Shown piece by piece: positions 22,401 through 59,829 of a DNA stretch of 64,000 nt. A program made the position numbers and the translations under genes. The stretch's first letter is position 1, and the number at the start of each line of letters is the position of its first letter. The notes beneath the pieces are model-generated. The model searched no databases. It worked only from the letters and a program-made list of their open reading frames with translations, and was not told the DNA's origin. Where the stretch lies: positions 199,789-263,788 of the forward strand of contig PHBC01000003.1 in assembly GCA_002840505.1 (NCBI GenBank), in the 5' to 3' direction. The DNA comes from Deltaproteobacteria bacterium HGW-Deltaproteobacteria-2 (GTDB taxonomy: Bacteria > Desulfobacterota > Syntrophia > Syntrophales > Smithellaceae).

Positions 22401-23477
22401 ATGTACGCAGTAATAATGGCCGGTGGACGGGGTACAAGATTCTGGCCCCGCAGCAGAGAGAAAAAGCCTAAACATTTATTGGATATAATAAGCGAAAAAA
22501 CTATTATTCAGGAAACCATGGACCGGATCAAACCGCTAATCACTCCTGACAATATTTTGGTAGTAACTGGAAAAAAACACGCCCGCGCTCTGATTAAACA
22601 GCTTCCAGAAATCCCCCTTAAAAATATAATAATCGAACCGGAAGGGAAAAACACAGCCGCCTGTATTGGACTCGCTGCCTTGCATATTCAAAAAAGAATA
22701 CCCGATGAAATTATGGTAGTCCTGCCTTCCGATCACGCCATCGCCGATGAGCAGGAATTTAACGCCGTCATCGGCGCAGCAGCAAAAGTTGCCGCGCGGG
22801 AAGAAGGACTGGTAACAATAGGCATCAAACCTTCCAGCGTTCAAACAGGATTCGGCTATATTGAACAAGCGGATTCATTTCAGACGATAGATGGTAAAGA
22901 AGTTTTTCGTGTGAAATCCATTCGCGAAAAACCTGATTTCCAGCAGGCGCAAACATATATTCAAAACGGGAATTTTTACTGGAACAGCGGTATGTTTATC
23001 TGGAAGGCTTCGACCATATTAAAAGAAATCAGACGCTGGCTACCCGATTTATACGCAGGACTGATGAAGATTGATGAAGCGCTCGGCTTGCCTGACGAAG
23101 CGTTAATCGTGCCTCGTGTTTACAAGAAGCTTAAATCCATTTCGATTGACTACGGTGTCATGGAAAAAGCCGATAACGTTTTCGTGCTGCGAGGAGATTT
23201 CGGCTGGAGTGATGTAGGAAGCTGGGACGCACTTTGGGAAATATCGGTAAAAGACCCTAAAGGAAATGTTTTGGCCGGCAAAGGCAATGTTATCTATGAA
23301 GATACTGAAGGCTCTCTTGTTTACAGTCCGCAAAAGCTTGTCGCCCTCGTTGGAATAAAAGATTTAATAATAGTTGAAACAAAAGACGCTTTACTTATTT
23401 GTAAAAAAGGTTGCTCGCAAAATGTGAAAAAAGTAGTCGACGCACTGGAAGAAAAAAAGTTAAAAAAATACTTATAA
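22401..23477 (+). CDS. manC: mannose-1-phosphate guanylyltransferase
   Basis: Makes GDP-mannose from Man-1-P and GTP, feeding surface polysaccharide synthesis. The 358 residues contain only the nucleotidyltransferase part: MAGGRGTRFWPRSREKKPKH at residues 6-25, VLPSDHAI, FGYIEQ and FGWSDVGSWDALWE. The phosphomannose isomerase domain of ~470-residue bifunctional ManC is absent. AAAGGAGTG precedes the ATG. It is divergent from the RlmI-like gene. A palindromic repeat starts at the base after its stop codon. Confidence 0.92.
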   Translation: MYAVIMAGGRGTRFWPRSREKKPKHLLDIISEKTIIQETMDRIKPLITPDNILVVTGKKHARALIKQLPEIPLKNIIIEPEGKNTAACIGLAALHIQKRIPDEIMVVLPSDHAIADEQEFNAVIGAAAKVAAREEGLVTIGIKPSSVQTGFGYIEQADSFQTIDGKEVFRVKSIREKPDFQQAQTYIQNGNFYWNSGMFIWKASTILKEIRRWLPDLYAGLMKIDEALGLPDEALIVPRVYKKLKSISIDYGVMEKADNVFVLRGDFGWSDVGSWDALWEISVKDPKGNVLAGKGNVIYEDTEGSLVYSPQKLVALVGIKDLIIVETKDALLICKKGCSQNVKKVVDALEEKKLKKYL

Positions 23478-23621: not shown

Positions 23622-23918
23622 TCATTTCAAGTATACCGGCCCCCCCGTGACAAAAAATTTTCCTTTTTTGAGCTCATCGATAATCATGTTCAGGGTAGTT
23701 TTTTCATCATCAAAGGTAATGATCAATAGATCATTTTCCTTGTTTTCGTGTTTTTTCACGCCATCAATTTGTTTCAGGATGGAACTCATCCTGGCTTTGG
23801 TGTTTCAAGCGGAGCACCCGGGTATGTTTAATTGCACAACTCTTTCCTTAGCCAGAGCAACACTACCAAAACACACTAATAAAATGCATGTTAAAAATAC
23901 ACCTAATATTCTTTTCAT
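23622..23918 (-). CDS. MerP/HMA-like selenoprotein with in-frame UGA
   Basis: Reading leftward from ATG at 23,918 gives 98 codons with one in-frame TGA at codon 38 (23,805-23,807), ending at TGA 23,622. Residues 1-23 form a signal peptide ending in ALA. Residues 26-92 match the heavy-metal-associated beta-alpha-beta-beta-alpha-beta fold: RVVQLNIPGC, then Ser-Ala-UGA, a helix SSILKQIDGVKK, a LLIITFDDEKTT strand and a second helix. The family metal motif is CxxC; here it reads Cys35-Ser-Ala-Sec38. A perfect 7-bp hairpin follows the UGA, and coding character continues for 60 residues after it. The tRNA-Sec gene is in the same window. GGGGTGA precedes the ATG. It would be a periplasmic metal- or redox-active protein; the exact role is unknown. 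The alternative is a recent nonsense mutation. Confidence 0.8.
23775..23793 (-). promoter_or_regulatory. bSECIS-like hairpin
   Basis: In the mRNA, CAGGAUG pairs perfectly with CAUCCUG around the loop AGUUC, starting 11 bases after the UGA, so the apical loop begins 18 bases from it. Known bacterial SECIS elements have a short apical loop carrying an early G about 16-37 bases downstream of UGA, on a stem of several base pairs. All these are met. It lies within the reading frame, as bacterial elements do. Confidence 0.75.
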
Positions 23919-24056: not shown

Positions 24057-24650
24057 ATGCCCATTATTTCAAGCGCACCTCTTATTCTAGCTTCGGCTTC
24101 GCCGCGACGTAAGGAACTACTGCAGTCTATGGGATTGAAGTTTAAAATAATCCATCCCCGGATCAACGAAAATTACCTTGCAGGAGAAAGTCCGCGACAG
24201 CATGTAAAAAGACTCTCTAGTGATAAAGCTACTGTTATCGCTAATAAATATCCCGAGACATGGGTGCTGGGAGCCGATACAATTGTGGTTATTGACGGCC
24301 TTATTTTAGGAAAACCAAAGAACAAAAAACAGGCGCTAGGAATGCTCAGAAAACTAAGCGGACGCGAACATAAAGTTTTTACAGGTTTCACTATTGCTCA
24401 CGCAGCCTCCAGAATTTACCAAACAAAAGTTATTCAATCCACCGTGCTATTTAAGAAAATCAGCCCCAAAGAGATGAAATGGTATGTTTCTTGTGATGAA
24501 CCATACGACAAGGCCGGCGGATATGCAGTACAGGGAAAAGGCGCCTACTTCATACAATCAATTCGCGGTTCTTACACAAACGTGATCGGGCTGCCGCTTT
24601 GCGAAGTTTTGGAAGCATTTAAAAATCTCAAAGCACTCAATTTCCGTTAA
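24057..24650 (+). CDS. maf: Maf-like nucleoside triphosphate pyrophosphatase
   Basis: A 197-residue Maf/HAM1-fold enzyme that hydrolyses non-canonical or specific NTPs (dTTP/UTP in the YhdE class). Signatures are LILASASPRRKELLQSMG at residues 7-24, VLGADTIVVIDG, GREHKVFTGF and DEPYDKAGGYAVQGKGAYFI. The length is normal. It precedes yggS, with a long perfect hairpin between them, as part of a small housekeeping pair. Confidence 0.93.
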   Translation: MPIISSAPLILASASPRRKELLQSMGLKFKIIHPRINENYLAGESPRQHVKRLSSDKATVIANKYPETWVLGADTIVVIDGLILGKPKNKKQALGMLRKLSGREHKVFTGFTIAHAASRIYQTKVIQSTVLFKKISPKEMKWYVSCDEPYDKAGGYAVQGKGAYFIQSIRGSYTNVIGLPLCEVLEAFKNLKALNFR

Positions 24651-36881: not shown

Positions 36882-36979
36882 GGAAGTGCCAAGGTCACTG
36901 GTGGGCCTCTCGGACTTCAAATCCGGTGTGGGGCGCTAAAACCGTCCCGGGTGGGTTCGATTCCCATGCACTTCCGCCA
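36882..36979 (+). tRNA. selC: tRNA-Sec (TCA)
   Basis: A 98-nt tRNA with 8-bp acceptor GGAAGTGC/GCACTTCC, discriminator G and encoded CCA. The anticodon arm CGGACTTCAAATCCG carries TCA (36917-36919). A very long variable arm (GGGGCGCTAAAACCGTCCC region) and T-arm GGGTTCGATTCCC follow. GGACTTCAAATCC matches E. coli selC exactly. It decodes UGA as selenocysteine with SelB. Its 3' 24 bases are the crossover region of the element integrated at its end, which rebuilds a complete gene. Confidence 0.97.
36956..36979 (+). repeat. attachment core attL (3' end of selC)
   Basis: The 24 bases from TTCGATTCCC to the encoded CCA recur exactly at 54,762-54,785 and 59,806-59,829. tRNA 3' ends with T-loop sequence are classic targets of tyrosine integrases, and selC is a known hotspot in other bacteria. 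Confidence 0.92.
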
Positions 36980-41939: not shown

Positions 41940-42164
41940 ATGAGAAGAAACGGAATATCAGTGAAATTGGAAGACAGAATGAATAATAATATTCTTTCCG
42001 TTAAAGGCGTTCTTGAACTTATATTTGCTGGCATTACTGGAGATTTTGAATCGATTGATGCTGAAAGCGTTCAAGTATTGATTAATGATGCTCAAAAGAA
42101 GTTGGACGAAATTAGAGAAGTATTTATTTTTAAAAATTCTTCAGCACAGGAGGGCACGGCATAA
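41940..42164 (+). CDS. small protein of unknown function
   Basis: The 74-residue product is amphipathic and helical with acidic stretches. ATG at 41,940 follows TTTGGAGGATTG, a strong ribosome site. No family recognised. It is the first full gene after the structured leader and precedes the serine recombinase by 40 bases. Confidence 0.55.
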   Translation: MRRNGISVKLEDRMNNNILSVKGVLELIFAGITGDFESIDAESVQVLINDAQKKLDEIREVFIFKNSSAQEGTA

Positions 42165-42204
42165 CAAAAACATGGGAATAAAAACAAAATCAGGAGGCGG
42201 GATC

Positions 42205-42891
42205 ATGAAAGCAATCGGTTATATCAGGGTCAGCACCGAGGATCAGGCACGGGAGGGCATTTCTTTAGACAATCAGGAAAGTAAGATCAAGGCTTATGCA
42301 GACCTTAACGGCTTTGAACTTGTGGATGTGATAAAAGATGAGGGCGTTTCCGGTAAGACGATGGACAGACCGGGCATGAATCGAATTAACGCTATGATTG
42401 AGACCGGAGAAATTGACGCTGTAATCGTTTATAAACTGGACAGGCTGTCACGTAAGACCATTGATATATTGAGTACCCTGGACGCATGGGAAAAGAAAAA
42501 CATAGCCTTTCATAGCATAACCGACAAAATAGACACAAAGACAGCAGCCGGGAAATTCCTTTTAACAATACTTTCCGCACTTGCACAAATGGAGAGGGAT
42601 TTGATTTCAGAAAGGACGATTGATGCGCTGGCGCATAAAAAGAAAGCCGGTGAATGGTGCGGACGTGTACCCTTTGGATATAGGATAGAAGGTAATCGAT
42701 TGATAGAAGATGAAACAGCTATGAAGGCCATAAAAAAAGCAAAACGCTTGCGCTCTACCGGTAAACCTTATAGAGATATTTCAAAGAGTACAGGGCTTTC
42801 TCTTGGGTATGTTCATAAGGCGATCAATACAAACCTTAGAACTATTAAGGCCAGCTATAACAAGCATTTACTTTGCGCGGCTGTTCATTAA
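42205..42891 (+). CDS. small serine recombinase (resolvase/invertase type)
   Basis: The 228-residue protein has the N-terminal catalytic domain with nucleophile Ser10 in YIRVSTEDQ, KLDRLSRKTIDIL, and AQMERDLISERT on the E-helix. A C-terminal helix-turn-helix (YRDISKSTGLSLGYVHKAI) follows. It lacks the large C-terminal domain of serine integrases, so resolution or inversion is more likely than integration. I chose ATG 42,205 with AGGAGGCGG upstream. Other in-frame starts further upstream would overlap the preceding small gene. Confidence 0.9.
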   Translation: MKAIGYIRVSTEDQAREGISLDNQESKIKAYADLNGFELVDVIKDEGVSGKTMDRPGMNRINAMIETGEIDAVIVYKLDRLSRKTIDILSTLDAWEKKNIAFHSITDKIDTKTAAGKFLLTILSALAQMERDLISERTIDALAHKKKAGEWCGRVPFGYRIEGNRLIEDETAMKAIKKAKRLRSTGKPYRDISKSTGLSLGYVHKAINTNLRTIKASYNKHLLCAAVH

Positions 42892-44725: not shown

Positions 44726-45543
44726 ACCGGGGATACGTAAAGCTTTGGCGTAAAATTGAGGATTCAGCAGTATTCCAAAATGAAGGGCTTTTGAAAGTTT
44801 TTGTTTGGTGCCTTATACGTGCGAACCACAAAGAACAATTTGTTCAAGTTAAAACAGGGCGGGGATTTTCTGAAGTCAAACTATTACCAGGGACTTTCAT
44901 TTTTGGCCGTGAATCAGCAGCAAAAAAACTCGATATGTCCCCTTCAACAGTATGGAAGCGAATATTGAAATTAGAAAAACTCGATTTTTTGAACATCAGA
45001 AGTAACAGCCATTATTCAATAATTCATATAGTAAATTGGATAATTTACCAAGCTACGACAGCAAATAGTGACAGCGAAAGTGACAGGCAAGTGACAGGCA
45101 AGGAACACAGACAAGAATGTAAGAATGATAAGAATAAAAGAATCTTCTTGTCTGATTCTATCGAAATCAGACTTGCAGAGCTTTTGCTTAAGAACATTCT
45201 TTCCCGTCTTCCGGGGTATAAAAAACCAAATATTCAAAGCTGGGCTAGGCACATTGATTTCATGATTCGCATTGATAAAAGAGACCCTTCAGATATCAGC
45301 AAAGTTATTGAATGGAGCCAGCAGGATAAATTTTGGCAAAGTAACATTCTTTCCACGGGCAAGCTTCGGAAACAATACGATCAGCTTAAAGCCAAAATGC
45401 AAAGCACCGGCGCAATAAATCAAGACGGAAAACCAGAGACAACAGAATCCTTCAAGTGTACGCGGTGCGGCGCTCAGGTACCACCGCAGGACAGGACAGT
45501 AGCTGGGTGCATCTTTTGTGAAAGTAAAGAGGCGCGAGCATGA
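44722..45543 (+). CDS. phage replication initiator-like protein
   Basis: The 273-residue protein has an N-terminal winged-helix replisome-organiser type domain (YVKLWRKIEDSAVFQNEGLLKVFVWCLIRANHK and KLDMSPSTVWKRILKLEKLDF). A helical middle and a C-terminal zinc ribbon (CTRCGAQVPPQD then GCIFC) follow. It is probably the origin-binding or helicase-loading protein. It is translationally coupled to dnaB downstream (ATGA overlap). Confidence 0.75.
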   Translation: MNRGYVKLWRKIEDSAVFQNEGLLKVFVWCLIRANHKEQFVQVKTGRGFSEVKLLPGTFIFGRESAAKKLDMSPSTVWKRILKLEKLDFLNIRSNSHYSIIHIVNWIIYQATTANSDSESDRQVTGKEHRQECKNDKNKRIFLSDSIEIRLAELLLKNILSRLPGYKKPNIQSWARHIDFMIRIDKRDPSDISKVIEWSQQDKFWQSNILSTGKLRKQYDQLKAKMQSTGAINQDGKPETTESFKCTRCGAQVPPQDRTVAGCIFCESKEARA

Positions 45544-46907
45544 AAGAGATTGTAAACAAAGTACCTCCGAATAATGCAGAAGCTGAAGAGGCTGTCCTAG
45601 GTGCGGTACTTTTTGAGAACAAATCTTTAAACAATTGTCTTTCGATAATAGGCCCAGATGATTTCTATAGTGAACGAAACAAAATCATCTTTAGCGCATT
45701 GTGTGAATTATCTAATTCGGGAAAACCTGTAGACGCAATTATCTTGTCAGATTTTCTGAGAATGCGTGGCAAATTAGATAAGATTGGCGGCCAGCTCTAT
45801 ATCGCGGAACTATTAGACAGCACAGCAACAAGTGTGCACATTGCGCATTATGCCCGTATTGTCAAAAACAAGGCCGTTTTACGGGCTATTATCGCAGCAG
45901 CCGATGAGATGACTATTAATGCCTATTCGGAAAATGGTGAAGGACCGGCATCTGTTCTTGATGAAGCGCAACGGGCATTAATGGGAATTACCGTTGACAG
46001 TAAGCGCAATGATGTCCGGGATTCAAAGACGCTATGCCAAGCAACCTTTAAGGCAATCGAAGAAAACCACAAAAATAAAAACATCATATCCGGTTTATCC
46101 ACCGGCTTTAATGATCTGAATAACTGGACATCTGGTTTTCATAACTCAGAGCTTATCATTATCGCCGGAAGGCCGGGCATGGGAAAAACAGCACTTGGCG
46201 TAAATATTATTGAGAATGTTGTTTTGTCCGGCGTCCCGGCAGTTATCTTTTCCCTTGAAATGTCCGGCGAATCACTTATGACGCGCATTTTTTCATCAAA
46301 GACGGGGATTGATTCAAGGAGGCTAAGGTGCGGCGTTGTCTTTGATAAAGACTGGCCGCGTCTTGTAGAGGCTGTCAACCATATAGGCGCGGCGCCCCTA
46401 TTTATAGACGATTCGTCAACATTAACCCCGATGCAATTAAAAGCAAAAGCCCGCCGTTTGAAAATTGAAAAGGGCATTGGCCTGATCGTGATTGATTATT
46501 TGCAGTTGATGACAGGCACCGGCAAAGCCGAATCAAGAGAAAGAGAAATTGCCGAAATCAGCCGTTCATTAAAGGCACTGGCCAAAGAGTTACAGATTCC
46601 CGTTGTCGCCCTGTCACAGTTAAATAGAGCCGTTGAGAACCGCACAGAAAAGCGGCCCAGCCTTGCAGATTTAAGAGAATCCGGCGCGATCGAGCAAGAT
46701 GCTGATGTTATAGCCTTTCTCTATCGTGATGAGGTTTATAACAAATCAAAAGACAATCCAGAACGTGGATTTGCTGAAATCATCATTGCCAAACAACGTA
46801 ACGGACCCACAGGCGCCTTTAAAATGAAATTCAATGCAGAACTTACACGCTTTTATAATTTAGTAGGGGAATCGGTTCAAAACAGTTCAAAAGGGTTCAT
46901 TAAATGA
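45540..46907 (+). CDS. replicative DNA helicase, DnaB family
   Basis: The 455-residue protein has the complete DnaB layout. The N-terminal primase-interaction domain (about 8-105) is followed by a linker and RecA-type helicase core with Walker A GRPGMGKTALG (Lys216), the IFSLEMSG segment, LIVIDYLQLM Walker B, VVALSQLNRAVENR and LRESGAIEQDADVI. It is a mobile-element copy, since it sits between element replication genes. It would allow self-directed replication. Confidence 0.93.
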   Translation: MKEIVNKVPPNNAEAEEAVLGAVLFENKSLNNCLSIIGPDDFYSERNKIIFSALCELSNSGKPVDAIILSDFLRMRGKLDKIGGQLYIAELLDSTATSVHIAHYARIVKNKAVLRAIIAAADEMTINAYSENGEGPASVLDEAQRALMGITVDSKRNDVRDSKTLCQATFKAIEENHKNKNIISGLSTGFNDLNNWTSGFHNSELIIIAGRPGMGKTALGVNIIENVVLSGVPAVIFSLEMSGESLMTRIFSSKTGIDSRRLRCGVVFDKDWPRLVEAVNHIGAAPLFIDDSSTLTPMQLKAKARRLKIEKGIGLIVIDYLQLMTGTGKAESREREIAEISRSLKALAKELQIPVVALSQLNRAVENRTEKRPSLADLRESGAIEQDADVIAFLYRDEVYNKSKDNPERGFAEIIIAKQRNGPTGAFKMKFNAELTRFYNLVGESVQNSSKGFIK

Positions 46908-54761: not shown

Positions 54762-54785
54762 TTCGATTCCCATGCACTTCCGCCA
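54762..54785 (+). repeat. attachment core copy 2
   Basis: Exact 24-bp copy of the selC 3' end (36,956-36,979). It is the right boundary of the first element and the left boundary of the second segment. Confidence 0.92.
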
Positions 54786-59805: not shown

Positions 59806-59829
59806 TTCGATTCCCATGCACTTCCGCCA
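59806..59829 (+). repeat. attachment core copy 3
   Basis: Third exact 24-bp copy of the selC 3' end. AGCGGA upstream is shared with copy 2. Confidence 0.9.

Follow-up and report, generated by a model that had tools for sequence, protein, structure and literature searches.

SelW-like (Rdx) selenoproteins are small and carry CxxUG followed by a helix with an Arg. Among the Sec-containing families named in the 2008 GOS survey is 'Mercuric transport protein MerP', an entry that comprises two marine sequences and gives no motif (PMC2398784). A 2026 inventory of 119 families includes NF041115, a metal-binding protein with UxxU, and, with C/SxxU, a 'putative mercuric transport protein' of the MerT type; a free-standing MerP with CxxU is absent from those 119 families (PMC13188914). 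The gene described here lies in a window of 64,000 nucleotides, by which we mean the whole stretch of DNA that was analysed. We propose that its internal UGA is decoded as selenocysteine (Sec) and that the protein is a periplasmic soft-metal binder, a joint reading to which we assign a probability of roughly 0.65. An earlier note on this DNA had considered a secreted metal-binding Sec protein unusual and was unsure whether the family had been catalogued. The first part is weakened by the Sec MerP named in the 2008 survey and by the UxxU and MerT/CopZ selenoproteins already catalogued; as to the second, the window protein does not reach the cut-off of any model in NCBIfam (June 2026).

The gene occupies 23622..23918 on the (-) strand, with an ATG at 23918 and 98 codons followed by a terminal TGA (23622..23624); the stops of its homologues are TAA, TGA or TAG. 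Only one in-frame TGA interrupts the frame, at codon 38 (23805..23807), and it closes the predicted motif Cys-Ser-Ala-Sec (C-S-A-TGA, residues 35-38, 23805..23816), in which C35 is nearly invariant across the family and absent in a few members. Residues 1-23 (23850..23918), ending in SVALA and followed by KE, were picked out by eye from the sequence as a putative signal peptide, and the structural model has a hydrophobic helix at residues 4-17. The N-terminus is therefore a probable signal peptide, and export of the product is predicted. The single-TGA frame of 98 codons had been described in the earlier note at these same coordinates, together with the expectation that ordinary gene callers would split or miss it, and the gene list of the window indeed lacks the 98-codon frame.

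A standard caller would end this gene at codon 37, and the simplest alternative is accordingly that the UGA is an ordinary stop, left by a pseudogene or a sequencing error or closing a 37-residue peptide. Its conservation speaks strongly against this. By protein search, 49 of 60 relatives (Smithella/Syntrophales) have a homologue with one TGA, and the only exceptions to the TGA are second copies in two of those 49 carrier genomes, and extraction yielded two CxxC paralogues alongside 49 Sec-type sequences. When 395 genomes of the phylum were searched with a profile, a few more members came to light outside the order, bringing the Sec-type total to 57, and every one of the Sec-type homologues has UGA at the site. 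Among named records the closest is Smithella sp. SCADC (97% identity); it shares the TGA, as do Syntrophaceae metagenome genomes, and since the SCADC record is independent, the TGA is not a sequencing error. The homologues have no other internal stops, and the protein is conserved on both sides of the UGA; the part 3′ of it evolves under purifying selection, with dN/dS of ~0.07-0.4 in comparisons with ten near relatives. Close relatives keep the UGA rather than an intact Cys codon, and the hairpin described below covaries among them. With an identical UGA in 49 genomes, selection on what follows it and a covarying hairpin, we regard a stop, pseudogene or sequencing error as ruled out and give it next to no credence. 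From sequence comparison, the window gene is almost certainly a real selenoprotein gene whose UGA is decoded as Sec.

Eleven nucleotides 3′ of the UGA lies a bSECIS-like hairpin (23775..23793, (-) strand) with the sequence CAGGAUG-AGUUC-CAUCCUG, in which all seven of the stem pairs form; the perfect 7-bp stem and AGUUC loop reported before were thus found again. Of the window's 2306 TGA triplets, only eight are followed by a 7-bp Watson-Crick hairpin at the same distance, and when the window's own codons were synonymously recoded, an equally stable fold arose in 1.3% of trials. Taken singly, the window hairpin has a weak fold score (z = -1.45), and the case for it rests on the alignment. Across 43 distinct rows, standard pairs fill 97.0% of the hairpin cells, and in five of the seven pairs both partners have changed, as in C-G to G-C or A-U to G-C. 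Cells with such changes number 16 against 2.6 in shuffles, and none of 500 shuffles reached the observed pairing percentage or covariation score. Sliding the register by 1-3 columns lowered pairing to 50% or less at every shift, and the second base of the apical loop is an invariant G.

As the stem is wholly coding, a run of paired bases could be a by-product of conserved amino acids and no SECIS element at all, and synonymous recoding was used as the control. Even after recoding, 62% of cells pair, which is what this explanation can claim in its favor, but the observed value is 97%, and the changes on both sides of the stem pairs go beyond what it offers. Codon choice points the same way. AGG encodes the conserved Arg of the stem in 42 of 45 rows, against 11% of the Arg codons in the vicinity. 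At the first Ile, the 36 rows with that residue all use AUA, against a background of 18%, so that two rare codons are fixed within the stem. In the GC-rich member L102 the hairpin is still paired with a different stem sequence.

Two natural duplicates bear on the same question. Genomes G026 and G018 each retain a Sec copy and have an extra copy (L053 and L054, respectively) with UGU (Cys) in place of UGA, and the hairpin is absent from both extra copies. These group together (100/100) inside a Sec-type clade (97/93). Since the tree, built from 98 columns, leaves many forks open, the argument draws on well-supported branches alone. From the nested position of the Cys copies and their loss of the hairpin, we conclude that Cys replaced Sec after duplication. 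Together, the codon bias, the recoding control, the covariation and the missing hairpin of the Cys paralogues rule out a mere coding by-product, which we rate as very improbable, and favor a recoding signal.

Sec itself has also moved. In one clade (98/93) the UGA lies one codon upstream, giving C-x-U or V-x-U, whereas the hairpin has stayed over the codons of a conserved R-I-G-x-I-L stretch and is consequently about one codon farther from the UGA. Scored in the fixed register, L098, L100 and L101 show a displaced or weaker stem, although L098 still folds a 7-bp stem. Sec is kept without the Cys in several members, which have V (L100-L102), G (L099) or Y (L066) in its place. A second family member in genome G058, L073 (3603-4307, (-) strand), is of the C-x-U type and forms a fusion with a thioredoxin-like domain (PF14595, 25.6 bits).

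The machinery for Sec insertion is in place. The genome encodes selA (628 bits), selB (377 bits) and selD (383 bits), each above its cut-off, all three of which the earlier note had named as genes to look for, and the tRNA-Sec gene (selC, 36882..36979, (+) strand) lies 13 kb from the selenoprotein gene, as had been stated. With these genes present, the UGA and a covarying hairpin kept in close relatives, and the TGA repeated in an independent record, each of the three refuting outcomes set out in the earlier note is answered in favor of its reading. Among the relatives, selA occurs in 57 of 60, including 44 of 44 with at least 90% completeness and at most 5% contamination; the three without it (G001, G007 and G013) all fall outside that set. 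The selD gene of the window genome (L051, G000 C5:258649-259578) has one in-frame TGA, and because of it SelD is probably itself a selenoprotein.

Separately, the 3′ end of the tRNA-Sec gene (~24 bases, TTCGATTCCCATGCACTTCCGCCA) recurs as exact repeats 17.8 and 22.9 kb downstream, so that copies lie at 36959-36979, 54765-54785 and 59809-59829 on the (+) strand (chance expectation 0.00). The arrangement suggests that one mobile element, or two in tandem, integrated at selC. Inside the putative element are a resolvase (42085-42891), a DnaB-like helicase (45540-46907) and a match to the int-alpA RNA (Rfam RF02996, 43255-43325, (+) strand, 37.2 bits with a gathering threshold of 35.8).

The product was described in the earlier note as HMA/MerP-like in fold, and both profile matches and predicted structure agree with this. 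The AlphaFold2 model (mean pLDDT 85.7) has the beta-alpha-beta-beta-alpha-beta order of the HMA fold, and its best matches among solved structures are CopA domains, MerP 1osd and CopZ. All 47 family members scanned match the MerP profile TIGR02052, and 22 of the 47 match Pfam HMA at E <= 0.1; a Pfam HMA search with the window protein itself gave no match. The position of the motif is less straightforward. The conserved G and the G-V that follows helix 1 are as far apart as in HMA domains such as that of L112, a free-standing HMA protein, and CxxU occupies G+1..G+4, compared with G+3..G+6 for the HMA CxxC. The statement that the UGA falls exactly at the second Cys of CxxC thus holds in the hhalign and phmmer alignments, which pair CxxU with CxxC by a compensating two-residue gap, but not in the ungapped HMMER alignment to CopA, where CxxU is displaced by two residues toward strand 1. 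Given this displacement and the lack of the Cys in some members, the usual two-ligand HMA site appears not to be conserved.

The gene stands alone, outside any mer operon, between a divergent gene for a Maf-like nucleotide pyrophosphatase (24057..24650, (+) strand) and a convergent mannose-1-phosphate guanylyltransferase-like gene (22401..23477, (+) strand), both products being named from sequence alone. Each neighbor cluster is kept in 33 of 44 loci, a comparison that includes two duplicates, and we conclude that the gene is old, has mostly been passed down vertically within the order, and does not belong to a mer operon. Among the 44 loci, none of the conserved neighbors is a mer gene or another metal gene, and a promoter scan stayed at chance level.

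We hypothesize that this is a real monocistronic gene in which SelB with Sec-tRNA would read UGA38 as Sec, with insertion directed by the hairpin 11 nt downstream. The signal peptide would then export the product, which would fold as a small MerP-like HMA domain presenting Cys-x-x-Sec in the loop between strand 1 and helix 1. There the selenol, with the Cys where present, would most likely bind a soft metal in the periplasm, such as Hg(II), organomercury, Cu(I) or Ag(I). Computation supports the recoding signal and its conservation, the presence of the machinery, and the fold; export, metal binding and the choice of metal are predictions.

The main rival on function is a redox selenoprotein built on the HMA scaffold, a periplasmic thiol/disulfide or peroxide reductase and no metal carrier, working through a CxxU selenenylsulfide or through the selenol acting alone. 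Selenoproteins commonly use CxxU as a redox motif (PMC13188914), L073 is joined to a thioredoxin-like domain, and metal genes are absent nearby, all of which would fit such an enzyme. On the other hand, L066 and L099-L102 have lost the Cys partner while keeping Sec, which disfavors an obligate selenenylsulfide, and the fold and all profile relatives are those of metal-binding HMA, MerP and CopZ domains. Because of that kinship we favor soft-metal binding and consider the redox reading rather unlikely. The protein is thus probably a periplasmic soft-metal binder, possibly for mercury.

HgcA, the mercury-methylation corrinoid protein, is encoded above cut-off in the window genome (G000 C5:53054-54040) and in 32 of the 49 carriers compared with 2 of the 11 non-carriers (Fisher p = 0.006, confounded by kinship); because every non-carrier falls outside the family, shared descent may account for the co-occurrence. 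We speculate, as a doubtful further step, that the periplasmic selenoproteins of Syntrophales and a few other lineages could form a family of their own, inherited vertically, in which the selenol alone, with or without a neighboring Cys, captures mercury or methylmercury on the surface of syntrophs that methylate mercury.

It is of interest that a gene conserved throughout an order of syntrophic anaerobes is missed by ordinary callers and lacks a family model. The family also supplies natural tests of Sec recoding, since the UGA has shifted by one codon while the hairpin keeps register with the protein, and the hairpin has vanished where a duplicate exchanged Sec for Cys. With its small Sec-containing HMA domain, the family offers a way to ask why a metal site uses selenium, in bacteria that include hgcA carriers.

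Among known systems, SelW-like (Rdx) proteins resemble the window protein in their small size and in CxxUG with an Arg-bearing helix after it but differ in fold. The Pfam Rdx profile matches neither the window protein nor the family members, and nearly all of the best 50 structure matches are HMA domains, with no SelW among them, which rules this group out. NF045683, the MerT/CopZ fusion-like heavy metal transport selenoprotein, likewise pairs selenium with heavy metals and weakly matches 3 of the 47 members; its model has 235 positions and a MerT-like part, whereas the window protein is free-standing. It was rejected as a parent family, as its matches in the phylum fall below the cut-off and have an ordinary GMTCPSC site. 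The UxxU (seleno)protein NF041115 is also an HMA domain with Sec, but it has two Sec at the canonical CxxC position where the window protein has a single Sec in CxxU, displaced in the ungapped alignment, and a score of 19.8 bits against a cut-off of 95 excludes membership. The known UxxU kind does occur in the data set, in L112 (genome G085, C122:1504-1767), whose two in-frame TGAs give EGMIUPAUP and which scores 67 bits against the same cut-off. The entry of the 2008 survey is by name a MerP with Sec, and it may belong to the same family as the window protein (PMC2398784). The window protein is not MerP proper (TIGR02052; PDB 1afi, 1osd), since it scores 39.2 bits against a cut-off of 92.55, has Sec for Cys in a motif that the ungapped alignment places two residues nearer strand 1, and lies outside a mer operon; with MerP it nonetheless shares a putative signal peptide, its size, the HMA fold and the FDD-K-T strand.
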